Assembly: GCA_034521495.1 (NCBI GenBank)
Contig: JAXHMK010000013.1
Location: 1-64,000 of the forward strand
DNA: 64,000 nt
Reading direction: 5' to 3'
From: Balneolaceae bacterium
Lineage (GTDB): Bacteria > Bacteroidota > Rhodothermia > Balneolales > Balneolaceae
Positions 11,116-47,545 of the stretch are shown one piece after another (the first letter of the stretch is position 1; each line of letters opens with the position of its first letter). A program made the translations under genes and the position numbers. The notes beneath the pieces are model-generated. The model saw nothing but the letters and a program-made list of their open reading frames with translations, was not told the DNA's origin and searched no databases.

Positions 11116-12333
11116 TTATGCCATAGCATTTTCCAGTTCCTCTTTCAGCCGTTTGGCTACAATGCCAACCTCCTCCGGCTGCATCATAAACACACTGACC
11201 TCAACCGATTCATCGCCTCCAAACGTAACAATAGATGGATACCCGCTTTCCAGATTTTCACGCAGCTTGGGAGGTGTAATTTGGATCGTTTCCTGATCCC
11301 ATTTGATGGACAGATGGGGAACATGATTGGCAACGGGAAACACATAATGATTCGTCTCTACGGATGGAACAGTACTCACAGCCTCATCAATTCGGGCTAC
11401 ACGATTTTCCCACTCTTTCCAGTCTTTCTCATGATCGCGTTCAAGATATTTTTCCAACGCTACCATCATTGCTAAGATCTCCTCTTTATTCACTTTCATG
11501 CCACGCCCAATGGTATCACTGTGTGGAACCGTGTTGAGCCGAGCCGCTTCAATCAACTCCTTTCGGCCGAACAGCAACCCGGCACTCTGTGGCCCCCGAA
11601 TGGCTTTTCCGCCCGAGAAGGTTACAAGGTCGAATCCAATTTCTGTGTATTTAAAAAGGTTTTCAACAGGAGGAACATCAGCCGCCGCATCGATAAATGT
11701 GGGGACATTGTGATTTTTGCCAATCTGAACAAACTGCTCATGACTTACGCTATGCTCGCCGGCGGCGTTAAAAAAGAGCATCATCACCGTCCGGTCATTA
11801 ATCGCGTTTTCCATCTCTTGCGGACCGTCCACTTCAACCATTTTTATGCCCGTATTCCGAACGGCATGATCGTAGCCAAAACGGTGGGTTTTTTGAATAA
11901 TCACTTCCAATTGTTCTCCGGGCAGATTGGGCAGTGTCCGAATTTTTTCAGGGTCTTTACCCGTAATCGTTGCAGCTGTACCCAGTGTTAATGCAGAAGC
12001 TGCACCTGCCGTCACCATTGCCCCCTCGCATTTCAGCATCTCTGCAATTCGCTCGCCGACTTTGTCTTGCAACTCATTCAAATCCACAAACTGTTGAGAA
12101 GCATAATTGTATGCTTCAATCACTTCCGGGTGCATCAGCGATCCCGACTTCGCCGTAATCGTGCCCCAGGCATTAATAAACGGTTTCACTCCCAGTTCTG
12201 TGAAGAAATCGCGGCTGTATTTCGGCCGAGTCAATTTTTCACCTGATACTTTTCTGATCGCATTTGATCCCGCAAGCCCACCCATAAACGGAAGAGTTGC
12301 AAGCATTTTTAACATCGTTCGTCGGTTTAACAT
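11116..12333 (-). CDS. Exported PLP-dependent lyase, SelA / D-glucosaminate-6-P ammonia-lyase-like
   Basis: 405-residue fold-type I PLP enzyme of the branch that includes DgaE (D-glucosaminate-6-phosphate ammonia-lyase) and SelA. Visible motifs: the start of the fold VKPFINAWGTIT, the Gly/Ala-rich cofactor segment AMVTAGAASALTLGTAA near residue 100-120, and the Schiff-base lysine in VTFSGGKAIRGPQSAG near residue 240. Unusually for such an enzyme it begins with a twin-arginine signal (MLNRRTMLKML, hydrophobic core, cut near GSNA), so a periplasmic location is predicted. Last gene of the reverse-strand operon with two RidA genes and an amidohydrolase. A lyase releasing an enamine/imine would suit the RidA neighbours. 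Substrate unknown. Confidence 0.82.
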   Translation of the reverse strand: MLNRRTMLKMLATLPFMGGLAGSNAIRKVSGEKLTRPKYSRDFFTELGVKPFINAWGTITAKSGSLMHPEVIEAYNYASQQFVDLNELQDKVGERIAEMLKCEGAMVTAGAASALTLGTAATITGKDPEKIRTLPNLPGEQLEVIIQKTHRFGYDHAVRNTGIKMVEVDGPQEMENAINDRTVMMLFFNAAGEHSVSHEQFVQIGKNHNVPTFIDAAADVPPVENLFKYTEIGFDLVTFSGGKAIRGPQSAGLLFGRKELIEAARLNTVPHSDTIGRGMKVNKEEILAMMVALEKYLERDHEKDWKEWENRVARIDEAVSTVPSVETNHYVFPVANHVPHLSIKWDQETIQITPPKLRENLESGYPSIVTFGGDESVEVSVFMMQPEEVGIVAKRLKEELENAMA

Positions 12334-12368
12334 TGGTTTATTTTTGATTAAAAAATTAGGGGTTTTAA

Positions 12369-12504
12369 GTCTCCCCTTGAGGGGAGACAGAGTTTTTCAA
12401 ATGTTCTTGAAAAACTCAGAGGGGTGTTAACGGCACGAGTCTTGAGACATCCCCCGAGTTCATTCGCTATACGCTCATTTCACTTTCCCCCTTCAAAGGG
12501 GGAA
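12369..12504. repeat. R3 repeat (CCCC-type palindromic element)
   Basis: About 135 bp with ends GTCTCCCCTTGAGGGGAGAC and TTTCCCCCTTCAAAGGGGGAA, each itself a palindrome, and internal GACATCCCCCGAGTTC. Its close relative is at 13096-13234. The right end touches the stop codon of the ridA gene, so it fills the whole gap between two operon genes. Confidence 0.75.
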
Positions 12505-12505
12505 T

Positions 12506-13066
12506 TTAATCCACAACCTCCACAATCATCTCAATTTCTACGGGAATATTACTTGGCAAGGAGCCCATCCCAACCGCAGATCTCGCATGTTTTCCGCGAT
12601 CACCAAAAACTTCAACCATCAAATCAGAAAAACCGTTGATAACCTGTGGATGGTCGCCAAAAGTGGGTTCAGCATTCACCATCCCCAGCACTTTTACAAT
12701 TCGTTTTACTTTGTTCAAATCGCCAATCTCAGCCTTCAGGGAATTGATGAGAGAAATTCCTGTCAATCGAGCGGCTTCTTTGGCTTCTTCAACGGTAATC
12801 TGATCCGTACCCACACGGCCGGTAACAAGTCCTCCTTCTGGTTTGTCGGGACCATGACCTGAGAGAAATATGAGATTTCCGGTTCGAACAGCTTTCACAT
12901 AATTCGCAACCGGTGGAGTTGGAGGGCTCAGTTCAATTCCCAGCTCCGAAATTCGCTCCTCCACATCGTAATCATAGAGGTTTTCTGAATTGGTTTGATT
13001 GTCGGGTTTTGCACATGTCATAGTAAAAAGTGGGATTAGGATTAATAGGGTTACATTTTTTAGCAT
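12506..13066 (-). CDS. RidA family protein, lipoprotein-anchored
   Basis: Rid family enamine/imine deaminases hydrolyse reactive intermediates released by PLP enzymes. The mature domain shows LIFLSGHGPDKPEGG, GRVGTDQITVEEAKEAARLTG, NLNKVKRIVKVLGMVNAEP-like pattern and the C-terminal ARSAVGMGSLPSNIPVEIEM with the conserved arginine and the G-LP-x-x-x-VE-E motif. I place the start at ATG 13066 because it gives MLKNVTLLILIPLFTMTC, a lipoprotein signal with a lipobox cysteine at residue 18; the longer frame to 13144 reads through an R3 repeat. A lipid-anchored RidA is unusual. 186 residues. Confidence 0.85.
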   Translation of the reverse strand: MLKNVTLLILIPLFTMTCAKPDNQTNSENLYDYDVEERISELGIELSPPTPPVANYVKAVRTGNLIFLSGHGPDKPEGGLVTGRVGTDQITVEEAKEAARLTGISLINSLKAEIGDLNKVKRIVKVLGMVNAEPTFGDHPQVINGFSDLMVEVFGDRGKHARSAVGMGSLPSNIPVEIEMIVEVVD

Positions 13067-13095
13067 AAACAAGAAATAGGTTGAGGGTTTAAAAA

Positions 13096-13234
13096 TCTCC
13101 CTTTGAGGGGAGACATGATTTCTCAATTGTTCTTGAGAAATCAAGAGGGGTGTCTGCGTGGTGCGGTGACATCCCCCGAGTTCTCCCGATTCTGATAAAT
13201 CAGATCGGTATCACTTTCCCCCTTCAAAGGGGGA
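13096..13234. repeat. R3 repeat
   Basis: Close relative of the element at 12369: CTCCCTTTGAGGGGAGACAT at the left, GACATCCCCCGAGTTCTCCC in the middle, TTTCCCCCTTCAAAGGGGGA at the right. It fills the gap between the lipoprotein RidA gene and the amidohydrolase gene. Confidence 0.75.
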
Positions 13235-13238
13235 TTTA

Positions 13239-14504
13239 TTATTCCTCAAAAGGAGTAGCTGCCAGTCCATTCAGATCCCAAACTACACTCCCGGCGCGAA
13301 TGGTCAGTTCCGGTTGTAGTTTTTGAGATCCGGGGAGGCTGAATCCACGGGAATCAATAAACCCGAAATCTCCTTCTTGAAGACTAAAAACGGCAATATC
13401 CGCAACGGCACCTTCACTTAAATGTCCCAGTTCTTCGCGCTGAATAACCTGTGCCGGTTTCCAGGTGGATGCCTCAATAACTTCATTCAAAGTCATCCCA
13501 AGATTCATAAATTTAGACATCAGATTCGCCATATTTTTCATACCGCCATTCATACTGCCGATGTGAATATCCGTGCTGATGGTATTTGGCCACAATCCCT
13601 GCTCAATCGCCGGAACGGCTACACTGTAAAAGAAGCTGCCTCCTCCGTGGCCCACATCAAAAATGATTCCATTTTCCTGGGCCTCCAGCATACCATCACG
13701 CAGTTGATCGTTTTCATCAATTACCGCCTGCCGGACTTCCACACCACCGCCATAAACATGTGTGTAGATGTCTCCGGGACGCAGAATATCATTCACAAGA
13801 CTGTCAATCGGAAGCGGCGGAATAGCTCCGCCAAAATCTACCATCACCGGGATGTTTGATTTTTCGGCTGCAGTGACCGTTCTGCGATAGGGCTCCCAAT
13901 CTCTGCCGTTGTAGTGAGCAATTTTAACTCCTACAATCTCAGAGTGTTGATTTGCAATAATCGAGGTCATTCTCGGATCCATATCCGCAAGATTCTGTTC
14001 GGGCGCGCCACTCATACCATCGCCCACAATGTTGATAAACGCCAGAACGCGGGTTTGTGACCGGTCAATCACCTGGTCTTTGAACTGCTGAAAATTTCTC
14101 CAACCAGCACCGCCAACATCCACCACGGTGGTTACACCGGATCGAAATGTAAAACCATCCGGGGGAAGTGCATTAAAACCATCGCTGTAGGCGCGATAAG
14201 GTTCCGTACCGTAGAAATTGTGGCTGTGCATGTCTATCAGGCCGGGAGTGATATAGAGCCCGGAGGCGTCCACAACTTTCTTCGCCTCATTTTCCGGGAT
14301 ATTTGCTGCAACACGGGCAATGGTGTTACCGGAAATAGCGATATCAAAAACACCGTCAATCTCATTTCTTGAGTCTATGACATGTCCGTCTTTTAGCAGG
14401 AGATCATAATTCTGGGCAAACAGAAGGGATGGTAAAAGCAGGATTAGTGTGATGAATAACGAAGCGGTTTGTTTAAAATGAACCTTAAATAGTGAGCAGG
14501 TCAT
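13239..14504 (-). CDS. Exported amidohydrolase / deacetylase-type metallohydrolase
   Basis: 421-residue TIM-barrel metal hydrolase of the amidohydrolase superfamily, closest in pattern to the EF_0837-type group that sits beside DgaE-like lyases. Metal ligands visible: HSH in GLIDMHSHNF (residue ~92), VGVKIAHYN with a candidate carboxylated lysine (~198), YTHVYGGG (~248), DVGHGGGSFF (~287) and TDIHIGS with the last aspartate (~314). A Sec signal peptide (hydrophobic core SLFITLILLLPSLLFAQ, cut after AQ) predicts periplasmic location. 24 bp downstream of the second ridA gene and so in the same operon. Substrate unknown; an N-acyl amino acid, amino sugar or cyclic amide is plausible. Confidence 0.85.
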   Translation of the reverse strand: MTCSLFKVHFKQTASLFITLILLLPSLLFAQNYDLLLKDGHVIDSRNEIDGVFDIAISGNTIARVAANIPENEAKKVVDASGLYITPGLIDMHSHNFYGTEPYRAYSDGFNALPPDGFTFRSGVTTVVDVGGAGWRNFQQFKDQVIDRSQTRVLAFINIVGDGMSGAPEQNLADMDPRMTSIIANQHSEIVGVKIAHYNGRDWEPYRRTVTAAEKSNIPVMVDFGGAIPPLPIDSLVNDILRPGDIYTHVYGGGVEVRQAVIDENDQLRDGMLEAQENGIIFDVGHGGGSFFYSVAVPAIEQGLWPNTISTDIHIGSMNGGMKNMANLMSKFMNLGMTLNEVIEASTWKPAQVIQREELGHLSEGAVADIAVFSLQEGDFGFIDSRGFSLPGSQKLQPELTIRAGSVVWDLNGLAATPFEE

Positions 14505-14528
14505 AATTGCAAATAGTTTAGATTACGA

Positions 14529-15020
14529 TTAAAGAGCGGCAATACAGTCAATTTCAACCAGTGAATTTCCGGGTATTCCGCCGTGGCAGGAAACGGTTGT
14601 GCGAACAGGCGGGCTGTCTCCAAACCGACCGCGGTAGGCCGCATTCAAACCATCATAATCGCGGATATCATGAAGGTACACATTCACCTTCAGGACTCTG
14701 TCCATGGATGACCCCGCTTCTTCAAGAGCTTCTTCAATCTGATCTAATACCGAATTGGTATGAACCGTAATATCTCCCTCTCCGTGTTCGCCTTTTCCGG
14801 CTACGTACACAAGGCCGTCATGAATTTTTACGCTTGAAAAAAGCGGAACTTCGCCTTGTTGATTTTTACCGGTAATGGATGTAATCGGTTTAGAAGATTC
14901 TTCACTTGAAGCAGCTTTTGCCTGTGAGATTCCGAAAAGTCCGGCACCGGCAGCCAGGAGTCCACTAAACATTGATTTGATGGCAGATTTTCGTGTTGTT
15001 TTTTGGGTGTTGTGATCCAT
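14529..15020 (-). CDS. RidA family protein with export signal
   Basis: 163-residue RidA-fold protein. N-terminus has TTRKSAIKSMFSG followed by a hydrophobic stretch ending ISQAKAA, a Tat-like or Sec signal with an imperfect R-K pair. The Rid domain shows VKIHDGLVYVAGKG, TNSVLDQIEEALEEAGSSMD, VLKVNVYLHDIRDY and the C-terminal PVRTTVSCHGGIPGNSLVEI, including the conserved Arg and IPG-x-x-VEI. First gene of the lyase/RidA/amidohydrolase unit if the promoter lies in the R3-containing gap upstream. Two RidA proteins of different anchoring in one operon is noteworthy. Confidence 0.85.
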   Translation of the reverse strand: MDHNTQKTTRKSAIKSMFSGLLAAGAGLFGISQAKAASSEESSKPITSITGKNQQGEVPLFSSVKIHDGLVYVAGKGEHGEGDITVHTNSVLDQIEEALEEAGSSMDRVLKVNVYLHDIRDYDGLNAAYRGRFGDSPPVRTTVSCHGGIPGNSLVEIDCIAAL

Positions 15021-15060
15021 TTGTTTTGAGCTGTTTATTTGAATTTAAGTTGGTTAATAA

Positions 15061-15195
15061 ATTCCCCCTTTGAAGGGGGAGAAATCAACAAAGTTGGTTC
15101 AGGGGGGATGACTTTTATGTCTTCATTCAATAACTAAATTTGTTAATTGTTTTCAGGATTGGCCATCCCCCATTGCCCCCTTCGAAGGGGGACAC
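15061..15195. repeat. R3 repeat
   Basis: Ends TTCCCCCTTTGAAGGGGGAG and GCCCCCTTCGAAGGGGGACA, with internal AAGTTGGTTCAGGGGGGATGA and GCCATCCCCCATTG. Nearest relative is at 47413-47545. It occupies the gap before the SMP-30 gene; the remaining ~190 bp to 15384 show nothing I recognise. Confidence 0.75.
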
Positions 15196-15384
15196 TTTTG
15201 AATTAAAATCATCGACCTGTAATGTACTTCCGACAGGATAGATTTACAAAATGAAGATCGGCTCGGCGAGCCGATGTATGTAGCAGTGCTTGCTGAGCAA
15301 TGAAATCCTTTTTTTACCCAAAAAATCTATACTGGCGCAAGTTTGTCCCTGGGGATCTCTATAAGGTAACTTACACTTTACTAT

Positions 15385-16311
15385 TCAAGATCTATCAAAC
15401 AACTTCCAGCTTCTTCCCGGTGTATCTGTTCTGAACAGCTGGATATTTCCAATATCGGCAACGGTGCAGTAAACAGTTTTACCATCCGGCCCGCCAAACG
15501 CAAGATTGGTAATGTTTTTTCCGTCCGCCATCTTAATTTCACGAATAATTTCTCCCTCCGGCGAAACGATTACAACCGTGCCTTTGCTGTGGCGGGTGAT
15601 ATAAAGGTTTCCTTTTTGATCACATCGCATTCCATCTAATCCAAAATCGGGGAATTCTATCAAAATTCGTTTGTTGCTGATCTCTCCAGCTTCAGACAGA
15701 TCGTACTGCCACACTTTTCGCTGAACCGATTCACCTACATAAAGCTTCTTCTCATCCGCACTGACCTCTACGCCATTGGTCGTTCCCATATTTTCTTCAA
15801 GTAGTGTTGTGGTTCCGTTCGTATCAATCCGCCAAAGCTGACCGGTGGATTCACTCCAATTGGGATCACTCGCGTACAAAATATCATTGGCTCCGATTGC
15901 CAGGTCGTTGGGTTGATTCATTCTTGGTTCATGCGCAAATACAGAGATCTCTTTCGAATCCATATCCACTTTCAGCACATTGTGATTCACATAATCCGCC
16001 AGGAACATTTCACCCCGGCTGTTAAATCGAATTCCGTTGGCAATGCTCCCATCAGACAGTTCTATAAAAACAGAGCCATTTCCACCTGGTGTGATTTTTC
16101 CGATGGTTCCCTGCCGGGCAAAATTCACAGCGTAGAGATTTCCATCTGTATCCACGGCCGGCCCTTCCGCACCGGATGTAAAACTGCCCGGCTCCGTAAA
16201 ATGAGTGACTTCAAAAAGTTCCTGTTTGCTGATTTTCGGTAAAGCGGATAAAAGTGAAGGTGCTGCTAAAACTGATCCTCCGATTACTTTTAAAAATCTC
16301 CGTCTGTTCAT
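15385..16311 (-). CDS. SMP-30/gluconolactonase/LRE family protein, Tat-exported
   Basis: 308-residue six-bladed beta-propeller of the SMP-30/gluconolactonase family, which opens sugar lactones. It starts with a textbook twin-arginine signal MNRRRFLKVIGGSVLAAPSL. Propeller motifs: GAEGPAVDTDGNLYAVNF near residue 48, MNQPNDLAIGANDILYASD with the metal-ligand N-D near 130, TTNGVEVSADEKKLYVGES near 180 and LDGMRCDQKGNLYITRHS near 220. It diverges from the PQQ dehydrogenase gene across a 156-bp gap. A sugar dehydrogenase making a lactone and a lactonase opening it form a standard periplasmic pair. Confidence 0.88.
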   Translation of the reverse strand: MNRRRFLKVIGGSVLAAPSLLSALPKISKQELFEVTHFTEPGSFTSGAEGPAVDTDGNLYAVNFARQGTIGKITPGGNGSVFIELSDGSIANGIRFNSRGEMFLADYVNHNVLKVDMDSKEISVFAHEPRMNQPNDLAIGANDILYASDPNWSESTGQLWRIDTNGTTTLLEENMGTTNGVEVSADEKKLYVGESVQRKVWQYDLSEAGEISNKRILIEFPDFGLDGMRCDQKGNLYITRHSKGTVVIVSPEGEIIREIKMADGKNITNLAFGGPDGKTVYCTVADIGNIQLFRTDTPGRSWKLFDRS

Positions 16312-16467
16312 GTAAGTATCTGCGTTTATTAGATTGAATTCTATTATATGTTTTCATGTCGTCATTACGAGGAATAACCATCATGAAAAATATTCAATTC
16401 GAATATGTGCTCGAACTTATATATTTATTACCTAATTTTCCGATGCTAATTTTCAGGGATTCTTTTT

Positions 16468-17931
16468 TTGAACGAACAATATTTACATAAAAACTTTTTC
16501 ACGGGACAGATTCTTTTTCTGTTGAAATCTGCAGCCCTCTTTGGTTTTCTTCTGATAAGCTCCATCTCTTGTCAGTTTGAAAACCGTGTTCAACTTCCGC
16601 CCGGTGATCGGGATGATGGAGGGCTTACTCTGCCCGATGACTTCGAAGCAGTAGTGGTGGCCGATAGTGTTGGCCCGGCCCGCCATCTTGTGGTAAATGA
16701 AAATGGCGATATCTATGTAAAGTTGAAGCGAGCTTATGAAACCGGCGGAATTGCAGCGTTTCGTGATACGACCGGAGATGGAAAAGCAGATATCATCAAA
16801 ACATTCAGCCTGGATCAGACCCGGGGGAATTACGAAACCGGTATGGAGATTCACGACGGTTATCTCTATTACAGCACACATCTGTATGTTTTTCGGTATC
16901 CATTGATTCCCGGTGAGTTGATTCCAGATACCACCCGCCGCGATACCATTGTGATTGACGATCACGATCCCGGTCATCATGAGCATATTGGAAAACCTCT
17001 CTCATTTGATGGTGAAGGAAATCTGTACACGGCTTATGGAGCACCCTCGGATGCGTGCCAGGAGCAGAATCGTATTCCGGGTTCGCCGGGACAAGATCCC
17101 TGCCCGATTCTTGAAGATCATGCAGGAATCTGGAAGTTTCAGTCGAATCAATTCAACCAGGTTCAACAGAAAAGTTCGAATGCAGAAAATAACTCTGTCT
17201 TAAATCCAACCGGAAAGAGATATGCTTCCGGCCTGCGCAGTATTGTGGCGATGGACTGGAATCCGGTTGATAACGAACTTTATGTGGTACAACACGGCCG
17301 CGATAATCTTCACAGCATGTGGCCTCAGCTGTTTACCGCCTGGGATAATGCCGTGCTGCCGGCCGAGGAATTTGCCAGGGTTGCAGACGGATCAAACTTT
17401 GGATGGCCCTACTGTTTTTACGATCAGTTTCAAGAGAAGAAAGTTTTGGCGCCGGAGTATGGTGGGGATGGAAAAGTAATCGGGCGATGCAGTGAGTTTG
17501 ATGATCCGCTGGTTGGATTTCCGGGTCACTTTGCACCGAATGATTTGAAGTTCTATCAAGCCGACCAGTTCCCGGAGTATTACAGGAATGGGGCGTTCAT
17601 CGCATTTCACGGATCAACCATTCGAAATCCCTACCCGCAGGCCGGTTATTTTGTGGGATTTGTGCCTTATAAAGATGGAGAATTCTCCCAGGATTGGGAT
17701 GTTTTTGCAAACGGATTTACAGAGGTTGATCCGGTGGTAAATACAAACGATTCAAACTATCGCCCGATGGGATTGGCGGTGGGTCCGGATGGATCATTGT
17801 ATATCAGCGATTCCGTGAAAGGAAAAATTTGGCGGGTGATGTATAAAGGAGACAGGGAATCATTATGGAGAGGAACAACTGGCCAAAATGAAAGAAGTAA
17901 AACGAACAGCCAGCAATATTCGATACCCTGA
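16468..17931 (+). CDS. PQQ-dependent sugar dehydrogenase (sorbosone dehydrogenase type), N-terminal part of a frameshifted fusion
   Basis: 487-residue frame encoding a lipoprotein beta-propeller. Signal and lipobox end at ISSISC near residue 35; propeller motifs include DSVGPARHLVVNENGDIYV, GKRYASGLRSIVAMDWNP (~250), YVVQHGRDNLHSMWP and DGSNFGWPYCFYDQ (~310), and AVGPDGSLYISDSVKGKIWR near the end. Start is TTG (no ATG available) with AGGGAT 9 bp upstream. The last ~20 residues are out of the family pattern. In the +1 frame the sequence runs on as HYGEEQLAKMKEVKRTASN into the cytochrome c domain; removing one G from GGG at 17855-17857 joins both into one ~599-residue protein. Periplasmic sugar oxidation with electrons passed to its own haem is inferred. 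Confidence 0.82.
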   Translation: MNEQYLHKNFFTGQILFLLKSAALFGFLLISSISCQFENRVQLPPGDRDDGGLTLPDDFEAVVVADSVGPARHLVVNENGDIYVKLKRAYETGGIAAFRDTTGDGKADIIKTFSLDQTRGNYETGMEIHDGYLYYSTHLYVFRYPLIPGELIPDTTRRDTIVIDDHDPGHHEHIGKPLSFDGEGNLYTAYGAPSDACQEQNRIPGSPGQDPCPILEDHAGIWKFQSNQFNQVQQKSSNAENNSVLNPTGKRYASGLRSIVAMDWNPVDNELYVVQHGRDNLHSMWPQLFTAWDNAVLPAEEFARVADGSNFGWPYCFYDQFQEKKVLAPEYGGDGKVIGRCSEFDDPLVGFPGHFAPNDLKFYQADQFPEYYRNGAFIAFHGSTIRNPYPQAGYFVGFVPYKDGEFSQDWDVFANGFTEVDPVVNTNDSNYRPMGLAVGPDGSLYISDSVKGKIWRVMYKGDRESLWRGTTGQNERSKTNSQQYSIP

Positions 17932-18268
17932 TGAGGTCGAGGATAATCTGCAGAAAGAAATTGGAGTGGCAGGCCAGAGGATTTATGAATTGTACTGCGC
18001 GGCTTGCCACCAGCGAAATGGAGAAGGAGTAGCCGGGCGTTTTCCGCCGATTAAAGGATCAACAAAAATACAACACAAAGATTCGCTTTTAACGGTGATT
18101 CTATCCGGTCAGAATACTCCCGATTATGAAATTCAAATGCCCCCGCATGACTTTTTGAGTGATGAGGAGGTTGCCGGGCTTTCAACCTATATTCTGCAGG
18201 AATTTGGGGGTTATCCGGATAGTGTTGCTTCGGATCAGGTTGGAAAAATCCGCGAAGTTTTGGAGTAA
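17888..18268 (+). CDS. Cytochrome c domain of the split PQQ dehydrogenase
   Basis: 126 residues with one c-type haem site, LYCAACHQRNGEG (CxxCH near residue 37-41), a likely axial methionine in QMPPHDFLSDEEVAGL, and the family ending LSTYILQEFGG. It has no signal peptide, which a c-type cytochrome needs, and it overlaps the dehydrogenase frame by 44 bp. This supports it being the C-terminal domain of that protein, cut off by a frameshift, rather than a separate gene. Confidence 0.75.
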   Translation: MKEVKRTASNIRYPDEVEDNLQKEIGVAGQRIYELYCAACHQRNGEGVAGRFPPIKGSTKIQHKDSLLTVILSGQNTPDYEIQMPPHDFLSDEEVAGLSTYILQEFGGYPDSVASDQVGKIREVLE

Positions 18269-18326: not shown

Positions 18327-18342
18327 CTTATACGGTTTAACT

Positions 18343-18492
18343 TGTTCCGAAGGTCCTCCTTCGGAACACACTCGTAGAAGCTCTGCTTCTGGTAATACAA
18401 CTGTAGAATTTGATTCCATTTGGGTGAGGTGACGGAGGAATGGAAGCGGAGCTTCGGTTTAGCATTCCGAAGGAGGACCTTCGGAACGAGTA
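18343..18492. repeat. R4 repeat (TTCCGAAGG palindromes)
   Basis: Begins ACTTGTTCCGAAGGTCCTCC, then GAAGCTCTGCTTCT and AATTTGATTCC, and closes with the inverted GGAGGACCTTCGGAACGAGT near 18472-18492. The left half (to about 18416) matches 28485-28562 nearly base for base. Fills the gap after the cytochrome domain. Confidence 0.65.
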
Positions 18493-18550
18493 AAGTGAAA
18501 AAGGTTAGGAATTTAGAATAGAGCAAGTCATCGGATGAGGTCAGATCTAT

Positions 18551-47412: not shown

Positions 47413-47545
47413 TCCCCCTTTGAAGGGGGAAAGAATCAACGAAGTTGATTGAGGGGGATGACCCAACCTTATTTGAATGTACATCAGTAAATCAAATTCG
47501 AATCACGTAAAATCATCCCCCTGCGCCCCCTTCAAAGGGGGACAC
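47413..47545. repeat. R3 repeat
   Basis: TCCCCCTTTGAAGGGGGAAA at the left, AAGTTGATTGAGGGGGATGA next, ATCATCCCCCTGCGCCCCCT and TCAAAGGGGGACA at the right. Same subtype as 15061-15195. It lies in the leader of the lipoprotein gene and lets a false start upstream (47477) appear open. Confidence 0.75.

Follow-up and report, generated by a model that had tools for sequence, protein, structure and literature searches.

A predicted extracytoplasmic lyase, Rid and amidohydrolase module in Balneolaceae and related bacteria

Organization of the locus

We analysed a window of 64,000 nucleotides (positions 1 to 64,000 of contig JAXHMK010000013.1, GenBank assembly GCA_034521495.1, from a Balneolaceae bacterium) and in it a cluster at 11116-18268, which encodes a pyridoxal 5'-phosphate (PLP) lyase, two Rid-family proteins (RID1 and RID2), an amidohydrolase (AMH), an SMP-30/gluconolactonase-like protein and a pyrroloquinoline quinone (PQQ) type dehydrogenase with a cytochrome c domain. 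PLP deaminases and Rid proteins are usually regarded as cytosolic; judged from their sequences, export of the enzymes of this module, by twin-arginine (Tat), Sec and lipoprotein signals, is well supported. The assembly that holds the window measures 4.57 Mb and is 97% complete, with Balneolaceae as its nearest named relatives. An earlier reading of the DNA from its letters alone (the sequence-only reading) had named these genes, and all of them were found where it had placed them:

11116..12333, minus strand: PLP lyase, DgaE/SelA-like, Tat-type; 405 aa; TIGR01437 191.9 bits, PF03841 40.9 bits
12506..13066, minus strand: RID1, Rid-family, lipoprotein-type; 186 aa from ATG; PF14588, PF01042 46 bits
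13239..14504, minus strand: AMH, EF_0837-type amidohydrolase/deacetylase, Sec-type; 421 aa; PRK09237
14529..15020, minus strand: RID2, RidA-family, Tat-like; 163 aa; PF01042
15385..16311, minus strand: SMP-30/gluconolactonase-like, Tat-type; 308 aa; PF08450
16468..17931, plus strand: PQQ-type pyranose/aldose dehydrogenase domain, probable lipoprotein; 487 aa; PF07995 38.2 bits
17888..18268, plus strand: cytochrome c domain, the C-terminal part of the dehydrogenase gene; PF00034 44.1 bits

On the minus strand the genes run in the order SMP-30, RID2, AMH, RID1 and PLP lyase, separated by 364, 24, 172 and 172 bases, and the dehydrogenase and cytochrome c sequences diverge from them on the plus strand. 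The lipoprotein signal that had been assigned to RID1 appears when translation starts at the ATG at 13066 and is absent from the upstream TTG start; the ATG is most likely the start used, and the orthologue in genome G068 begins at the equivalent ATG.

Predicted export of the encoded enzymes

Signals were called by a home-made heuristic script that tried all ATG starts within the first 70 codons, with open reading frames (ORFs) at locus edges dropped. The script is lenient, having wrongly flagged two of six cytosolic lyases, and it counts membrane proteins as well (22 of 22 symporters). With it, the window lyase (MLNRRTMLK..), RID2 (TTRKSAIKSMF..AKA) and the SMP-30 protein (MNRRRFLK..) score as Tat substrates, AMH scores as Sec, and RID1, from the ATG only, as a lipoprotein. 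The dehydrogenase scores as Sec and not as a lipoprotein; its Cys35 is kept in at least 90% of 23 alignment rows, which makes a lipoprotein likely. The sequence-only reading had all products exported, and this holds for the lyase and SMP-30 protein (Tat), RID1 (lipoprotein), AMH (Sec) and RID2 (Tat); the cytochrome ORF, being the C-terminal domain of the dehydrogenase cut off by a frameshift, has no signal of its own. Among the remaining ORFs of the window, 17 of 45 also score as signal-bearing.

The same picture was obtained across related loci (see below). When all starts were tried, a signal was called in 86/88 lyases, 56/59 RID2, 28/29 RID1, 25/26 RraA-like, 56/61 AMH, 35/39 dehydrogenase and 15/18 SMP-30 proteins, versus 242/556 other ORFs. 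Using the first start only, the counts were 77/88, 47/59, 26/29, 25/26, 51/61, 28/39 and 13/18, respectively, versus 211/556. Inspection by eye accounted for many of the misses: in two cases (L072_06, L113_06) the ORF start lay too far upstream, three (L080_08, L135_04, L081_04) are fragments, L097_15 is not a Rid homologue, L127_00 is Tat-like, and L061_05, a 210-aa RraA, is truly signal-less. The remaining AMH, SMP-30 and dehydrogenase misses are hydrophobic near the N terminus.

Evidence independent of the script comes from the lyase alignment. An R[RK] pair is found in the N-terminal extension (median 39 residues) that precedes the first residue homologous to Salmonella DGL in 83 of 84 full-length lyases. 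Arg4 is invariant in the 34 rows of the chosen alignment, with R5 kept in at least 90%, and SRR motifs are present in several RID2 orthologues. The genome encodes TatC (190 bits). Two canonical RidA proteins without any N-terminal extension are encoded on contigs C10 and C18 of the same genome, and a third, on C4, scores no signal.

The mature enzymes might nevertheless be cytoplasmic, if start sites were mis-called or if the N termini were inward-facing membrane anchors. Export is here a prediction from sequence, the lenient script mislabelled cytosolic lyases, and fewer proteins score when only first starts are used. Against this explanation, the lyase, RID1, RID2 and AMH carry three types of signal, kept as a feature that sets them apart from homologues without the extension. 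In addition, a full cluster in Granulicella (Acidobacteriota), one of six comparison regions (alphaproteobacterial, haloarchaeal and Granulicella) hand-picked from the 70 matches listed, is likewise signal-bearing: its lyase, RidA and lactonase are Tat-type and its AMH Sec-type, while its RraA has a hydrophobic N terminus by eye and no signal by script. We therefore consider a cytoplasmic location very improbable.

Conservation and distribution of the gene set

A scan with the lyase alignment of one genome per species, covering 84,980 species, returned at least 487 relatives, of which the best 80 loci were analysed. These are the best-scoring loci and not a random draw; six come from one Balneolaceae assembly and two from one Pareuzebyella strain, and the lyase of L077 was missed by ORF calling. 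Counting matches at E<=1e-5 up to 10 kb either side, AMH was present in 55 loci, a RID2-type protein in 56, a RID1-type protein in 26, the dehydrogenase in 40, an RraA-like protein in 28 and SMP-30 in 18, together with SusC (25), SusD (22) and a BASS-type symporter (21). Lyase, AMH and a Rid protein occur together in 51 of the 80 loci, or 50 of the 68 non-acidobacterial ones. On the same strand and within four ORFs of the lyase, AMH was found in 52/79, RID2 in 50/79 and the dehydrogenase in 31/79. The window's own genome holds only five RidA-family genes in total, from which we estimate that Rid neighbours would rarely arise by chance. Other recurrent neighbours, grouped by BLAST clusters of which one or two members were identified by Pfam, are CBM9-type proteins (13 loci), sulfatase-type proteins (11) and the DctP/DctM proteins of tripartite ATP-independent periplasmic (TRAP) transporters (6).

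Conservation of the gene set had been suggested as a check, and it came out in favour: the core of exported lyase, Rid protein and amidohydrolase is kept across Bacteroidota/Balneolota, and the observation is more general than the window alone shows. The lyase is sporadic, being present in 11 of 244 genomes of the class (E<=1e-20) and in 8 of 395 genomes drawn from the phylum (E<=1e-60); the exported lyase module is thus an accessory trait. Seven lyase matches fall in a single Balneolaceae genome (G069), where their neighbours vary and include an MlrC-type peptidase and a signal-less RraA; substrates may thus have diversified there.

The PLP lyase

By sequence the window lyase is a relative of DgaE/SelA, scoring below both curated NCBIfam cut-offs to which it was compared (140.3 versus 600 bits, and 191.9 versus 385.3 bits for TIGR01437). 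Its nearest entry in the Protein Data Bank (PDB) by sequence is 7lc0 (DGL). An AlphaFold2 model (pLDDT 89.7, with residues 13-35 below 50) gave as best Foldseek matches 8t7j (Cap15) and 7lc0, with TMt of 0.87-0.90. The predicted PLP lysine, Lys243, aligns with K213 of 7lc0, which the DGL paper numbers Lys-217 in its text (PMC9529869; here and below, PMC papers are cited from the parts of their text available to us).

Across the 84 exported lyases, the residues corresponding to DGL K213 and H112 are kept in all 84, and R226 is Arg in 54 and Lys in 30. H163 is His in 0/84 (the loop differs in length and the alignment there is approximate) and H162 in 8/84, and the phosphate-site arginines R301, R332 and R346 are kept in 0/84, 4/84 and 0/84. 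In DGL, His163 protonates C3, and the H163A variant reportedly releases free enamine, suggested to reach millimolar levels; the three arginines form the phosphate site obtained by docking (available text of PMC9529869). Lacking both the proton donor and the phosphate arginines, the exported lyases are predicted to act on an unphosphorylated substrate and to release an enamine.

It is possible to read the lyase otherwise, as an O2- and PLP-dependent oxidase or decarboxylase like Cap15, with the Rid proteins clearing leftover imine. Foldseek puts 8t7j level with DGL, and the absence of His163 from the exported lyases is in keeping with such an enzyme. However, DGL scores above Cap15 both by sequence (108 versus 98 bits) and by profile (187 versus 160 bits), and the deacetylase and RraA-like aldolase that so often accompany the lyase would suit elimination better, so that we regard a Cap15-like activity as decidedly unlikely.

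A family of longer Tat-type lyases (532-558 aa; L049_08, L052_02, L058_05, L034_00 and L148 7701-9299) forms a clade of its own beside the exported lyases.

Cytosolic counterparts

Plasmid records of Aminobacter, Qingshengfaniella and Martelella (L147, L150, L151) carry genes for a lyase, RidA, AMH, an IclR regulator and an ATP-binding cassette (ABC) importer, and Rhizobium (L146) has the lyase, RidA and ABC importer genes without the amidohydrolase. By eye, these alphaproteobacterial lyases, RidA proteins and AMH have no export-type N termini; the lyases show 28-34% identity, and the four keep His162/His163 and two of the three phosphate arginines. Signal-less homologues in syntenic clusters, which the sequence-only reading had named as a refutation, are thus found in part, namely in Alphaproteobacteria; these lyases branch apart. 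In a tree of 41 rows (29 of the 84 exported lyases, Granulicella, five of the longer Tat-type paralogues and six cytosolic lyases), which has several long branches, cytosolic and exported lyases are split at 98/96, with one change of label.

In the haloarchaeon Halomontanus (L149) a DGL-like lyase adjoins genes for a D-aminoacylase, a PIG-L deacetylase and a heparinase II/III protein, which hints at amino-sugar polymers.

Rid proteins, amidohydrolase and SMP-30 protein

Both Rid proteins pass YjgF/Rid Pfam cut-offs (RID1, PF14588, 60.1 versus 35 bits; RID2, PF01042, 68.9 versus 27.3 bits) and miss that of the detoxifying-hydrolase subfamily TIGR00004 (33.1 and 59.2 versus 106.25 bits); the nearest PDB entries to RID1 are 3d01 and 9bk9. 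The catalytic Arg/Glu pair is kept, as Arg188 and Glu203 in 29/29 RID1 proteins (numbered from the TTG start) and as Arg140 in 58/58 and Glu156 in 57/58 RID2 proteins; we take the catalytic arginine of E. coli RidA to be Arg105. AMH passes PRK09237 (422.5 versus 371 bits) and lies below the TIGR03583 cut-off for EF_0837 (232.8 versus 432.15). H93, H95, K194, H249 and D312, which together with H286 are presumably amidohydrolase metal-ligand positions, are kept in 56-57 of 58 rows, and H286 in 45 of 58. The SMP-30 protein passes PF08450 (143.9 versus 26.3 bits) and has the PDB relatives 7plb, 7ris and 8djf; its E49, N135, N179 and D226, which we take to be metal-ligand positions, are kept in 19/19.

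PQQ-type dehydrogenase and cytochrome c

The dehydrogenase had been labelled a classic sugar dehydrogenase; its modelled fold does not single it out as a glucose dehydrogenase of the classic kind. The AlphaFold2 model (pLDDT 80.7) is nearest to the AA12 pyranose dehydrogenases (Z 37.0-37.4, 2.5-2.8 A over 353-361 residues), the best match being 6h7t_A, a quinoprotein sugar dehydrogenase propeller (Z 37.4, 2.5 A, 353 residues); other sugar dehydrogenases follow at Z 28-32.

A 1-nt frameshift near 17864 splits the dehydrogenase-cytochrome gene: by tblastn, the alignment of the G068 orthologue starts in frame 2 and continues in frame 3. Of 42 dehydrogenase ORFs in other loci, 34 are single and measure 577-646 aa, three are longer, and three are cut short or reach a locus end; L121 also holds the gene in two pieces. 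A separate cytochrome protein at 17888-18268 was considered and rejected, this ORF being the dehydrogenase tail. A string search in four orthologues gave no match, and the assignment of the tail rests on tblastn and blastn. The frameshift, at 17860-17935, is a sequencing error or a recent split.

The divergent orientation of the window dehydrogenase raises the possibility of two unrelated systems, in which the SMP-30/dehydrogenase pair would serve plain aldoses beside a separate amidohydrolase-RidA-lyase operon. It is also true that neither the dehydrogenase nor SMP-30 is present in more than half of the lyase loci. Yet in 31 of 79 loci the dehydrogenase lies on the same strand at most four ORFs from the lyase, and we consider it unlikely that the two arms are unconnected.

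Sister clusters with RraA-like aldolases

The signal-bearing RraA-like protein that accompanies many lyases keeps R182/D183 in 26/26 (L042 numbering). In the window's own genome, contig C8 (L143 7352-10982) has a signal-bearing RraA and a BASS gene flanking a Tat-type galactonate-dehydratase-like protein. On C4 (L144 6195-8695) a second signal-bearing RraA adjoins another Tat-type, sugar-acid-dehydratase-like protein of the enolase superfamily, and a lyase paralogue on C9 adjoins a ManD-like protein. The dehydratase-like calls on these three contigs have family scores below curated cut-offs, with signals judged by eye. It is possible that the C8 and C4 sets constitute an extracytoplasmic sugar-acid pathway of their own. 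RraA is paired with the lyase in some clusters and with a sugar-acid-dehydratase-like protein in others, which points to a common type of product, a 2-keto-3-deoxy acid. Contig C12 carries a gene resembling that for 2-keto-3-deoxygluconate (KDG) kinase and a 2-keto-3-deoxy-6-phosphogluconate aldolase gene (196 versus a cut-off of 156 bits), together with TRAP genes.

A proposed pathway

We propose that the module carries out the extracytoplasmic catabolism of a 2-amino-3-hydroxy acid, for which an N-acetylated amino-sugar acid, for instance N-acetyl-glucosaminate (GlcNAc1A), is the likeliest candidate, and give this proposal about an even chance of being right. In such a scheme it is the enzymes, rather than the substrate, that would cross the inner membrane. 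The PQQ dehydrogenase would oxidise C1 of an (N-acetyl)amino sugar, passing electrons to its fused cytochrome c, and the SMP-30 protein would open the resulting lactone; in principle, a dehydrogenase and a lactonase are able to make an aldonate. AMH would then strip the acetyl group, and the lyase, exported by Tat as a PLP holoenzyme, would eliminate water. Since it lacks the proton donor of DGL, we propose that the enamine is set free, and RID1 and RID2 would turn it into a 2-keto-3-deoxy acid and ammonia. This product might be imported through BASS or TRAP carriers such as those of the sister clusters; alternatively, an exported RraA-like aldolase, also seen in sister clusters, might cleave it to pyruvate before import. 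We infer the substrate, the order of steps, the products and actual export from sequence. The amino-sugar route of the sequence-only reading fares accordingly: amino-sugar acids make a good substrate class, and the substrate itself is an inferred one.

Several observations weigh against this proposal. No gene of the window names the sugar, and a PIG-L type deacetylase recurs near the lyase in just 3 of the 80 loci. SMP-30 is near the lyase in only 18 loci and the dehydrogenase in 40. AMH occurs in one and a Rid protein in three of the 12 loci from Acidobacteriota, a number of which lie on short contigs. Neither an RraA nor a BASS gene lies near the window operon, both being on other contigs, and the modelled lyase fold resembles the O2-dependent enzyme Cap15 no less than it resembles DGL. 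All four alphaproteobacterial lyases examined keep His162/His163 and have RidA nearby, and the stretch around a haloarchaeal lyase that lacks His163 shows seven annotated features, none of them a RidA. No AA10 lytic polysaccharide monooxygenase (LPMO) was found in the 97%-complete assembly, which matches PqqE only below cut-off, as do the 14 control genomes.

Three ideas were set aside on these grounds. Loss of His163 as the simple cause of RidA recruitment was rejected, as RidA also tracks lyases that keep His162/His163. GlcNAc1A derived by LPMO was rejected as the source in this strain, and the aldonate would thus not come from LPMO-cut chitin. PQQ synthesis by the organism itself was rejected, given a PqqE match only below cut-off, and PQQ may need uptake.

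The same exported module could instead act on an N-acyl beta-hydroxy D-amino acid; N-acyl-D-Ser/Thr originating in peptides or cell-wall material would be an example. From this the lyase would form an enamine that RidA clears, with pyruvate or 2-oxobutyrate as the product. The cytosolic analogue OngC deaminates D-serine and D-threonine too (available text of PMC9537276), RidA is known for enamines of this kind, 2-aminoacrylate being discussed in the available text of PMC9529869, and a paralogous cluster (L044) adjoins an MlrC-type metallopeptidase pair, one member of which was identified by Pfam. This substrate would, however, leave unexplained the dehydrogenase/lactonase arm, the CBM9-type neighbour in 13 loci and the pairing of signal-bearing RraA with sugar-acid-dehydratase-like proteins, and we think it rather unlikely.

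Returning to amino-sugar acids, a bolder form of the proposal is that Bacteroidota/Balneolota and some Acidobacteriota perform a complete, non-phosphorylating, Entner-Doudoroff-like breakdown of these compounds outside the inner membrane, from oxidation, lactone opening and deacetylation, through PLP-dependent deamination with enamine release, to hydrolysis by Rid proteins of the periplasm or cell surface and RraA cleavage, and import only pyruvate-like keto acids, by a BASS or TRAP carrier. We put this forward tentatively, as possible rather than probable. A complete external route would spare the cytosolic PLP enzymes contact with reactive enamines, which poison them.

If the proposal holds, it would supply a physiological reason for periplasmic Rid proteins. 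The lyase would then be a natural enamine-releasing candidate on which the Rid paradigm could be tested, and amino-sugar acids could serve Bacteroidota as a source of nitrogen and carbon with no need to import the intact compounds.

Repeat elements

The spaces between the operon genes hold repeats built around the palindrome CCCCCTTYRAAGGGGG:

12334..12505, no strand: intergenic repeat element with CCCCCTTYRAAGGGGG at 12487-12502 (repeat search)
13067..13238, no strand: second copy of the intergenic repeat element, palindrome at 13218-13233 (repeat search)
15064..15191, no strand: palindrome pair at 15064 and 15176 (repeat search)

The palindrome has 82 sites genome-wide, versus 0 for a reversed control pattern. 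In the window it occurs at 12487-12502, 13218-13233, 15064-15079 and 15176-15191, these four lying between operon genes, and at 47414 and 47526. Many of the listed sites are paired, 72-144 bases apart, and the element looks like a repetitive extragenic palindrome or miniature inverted-repeat transposable element (REP/MITE-like). A different inverted repeat, at 18337-18494, with 30-nt arms that are 93% complementary and with TTCCGAAGG/CCTTCGGAA, lies downstream of the cytochrome ORF.

Comparison with known systems

The closest functional parallel is the Ong pathway of Pseudoalteromonas prydzensis, where GlcNAc1A is deacetylated and a PLP enzyme then deaminates the product to KDG (available text of PMC9537276). 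It shares with the module described here a deacetylase, a PLP deaminase and a RidA protein leading to a 2-keto-3-deoxy acid (available text of PMC9537276 and PMC12017989). The Ong enzymes, however, are predicted to be cytoplasmic and to act after import, whereas those of the module have export-type N termini; the Ong deacetylase is of D-aminoacylase type and its deaminase of fold-type III, in contrast to a PRK09237-type AMH and a lyase of SelA/DGL fold (PMC9537276). The logic of the Ong pathway may thus, by analogy, be met here by other enzyme families outside the cytoplasm. The Ong RidA gene is essential for growth on GlcNAc1A, with a role that its discoverers, in the available text, state to be unknown (PMC9537276), and this question becomes testable with the separable enzyme pair described here.

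DGL resembles the window lyase in fold, PLP lysine and His112, at 26% identity. It differs in that the window lyase lacks His162/His163 and the phosphate-Arg cluster, bears a Tat-type signal and is encoded in an operon without phosphotransferase system (PTS) genes. The alphaproteobacterial clusters likewise group homologous lyase, RidA and amidohydrolase genes; they differ in having no export-type N termini by eye, an ABC importer, and lyases that keep His162/His163. The AA12 PQQ pyranose dehydrogenases (6h7t, 6jt5), nearest in fold to the dehydrogenase domain, are fungal, whereas the dehydrogenase here carries a C-terminal cytochrome c and has PQQ as its putative cofactor.

In the view of the authors who described it, a haloarchaeal chitinase cluster with a glucose dehydrogenase, a DGL homologue and RutC corresponds to a GlcNAc route that passes through glucosaminate by way of a phosphate (available text of PMC12343721). 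In nicotine breakdown a Rid6 protein is predicted, and the enzymes except NdhAB are placed in the cytoplasm (available text of PMC7688666). Folded PLP holoenzymes exported by Tat are known experimentally from pyoverdine tailoring, in PvdN and PtaA; these resemble the lyase as Tat-exported PLP enzymes and differ in being biosynthetic, with no Rid partner mentioned in the available text of PMC6206403.

We found no description of an exported Rid protein or of an exported DgaE-type pathway among the matches listed in searches of the open-access literature, which is no proof of absence. The claim that exported PLP chemistry would itself be new goes too far in view of PvdN and PtaA, and the grouping of amidohydrolase, RidA and lyase already exists in a cytosolic version with an ABC importer; what is new is the relocation, in which, as their sequences suggest, a clade of lyases, two types of Rid protein and an RraA-like aldolase seem to leave the cytoplasm together.

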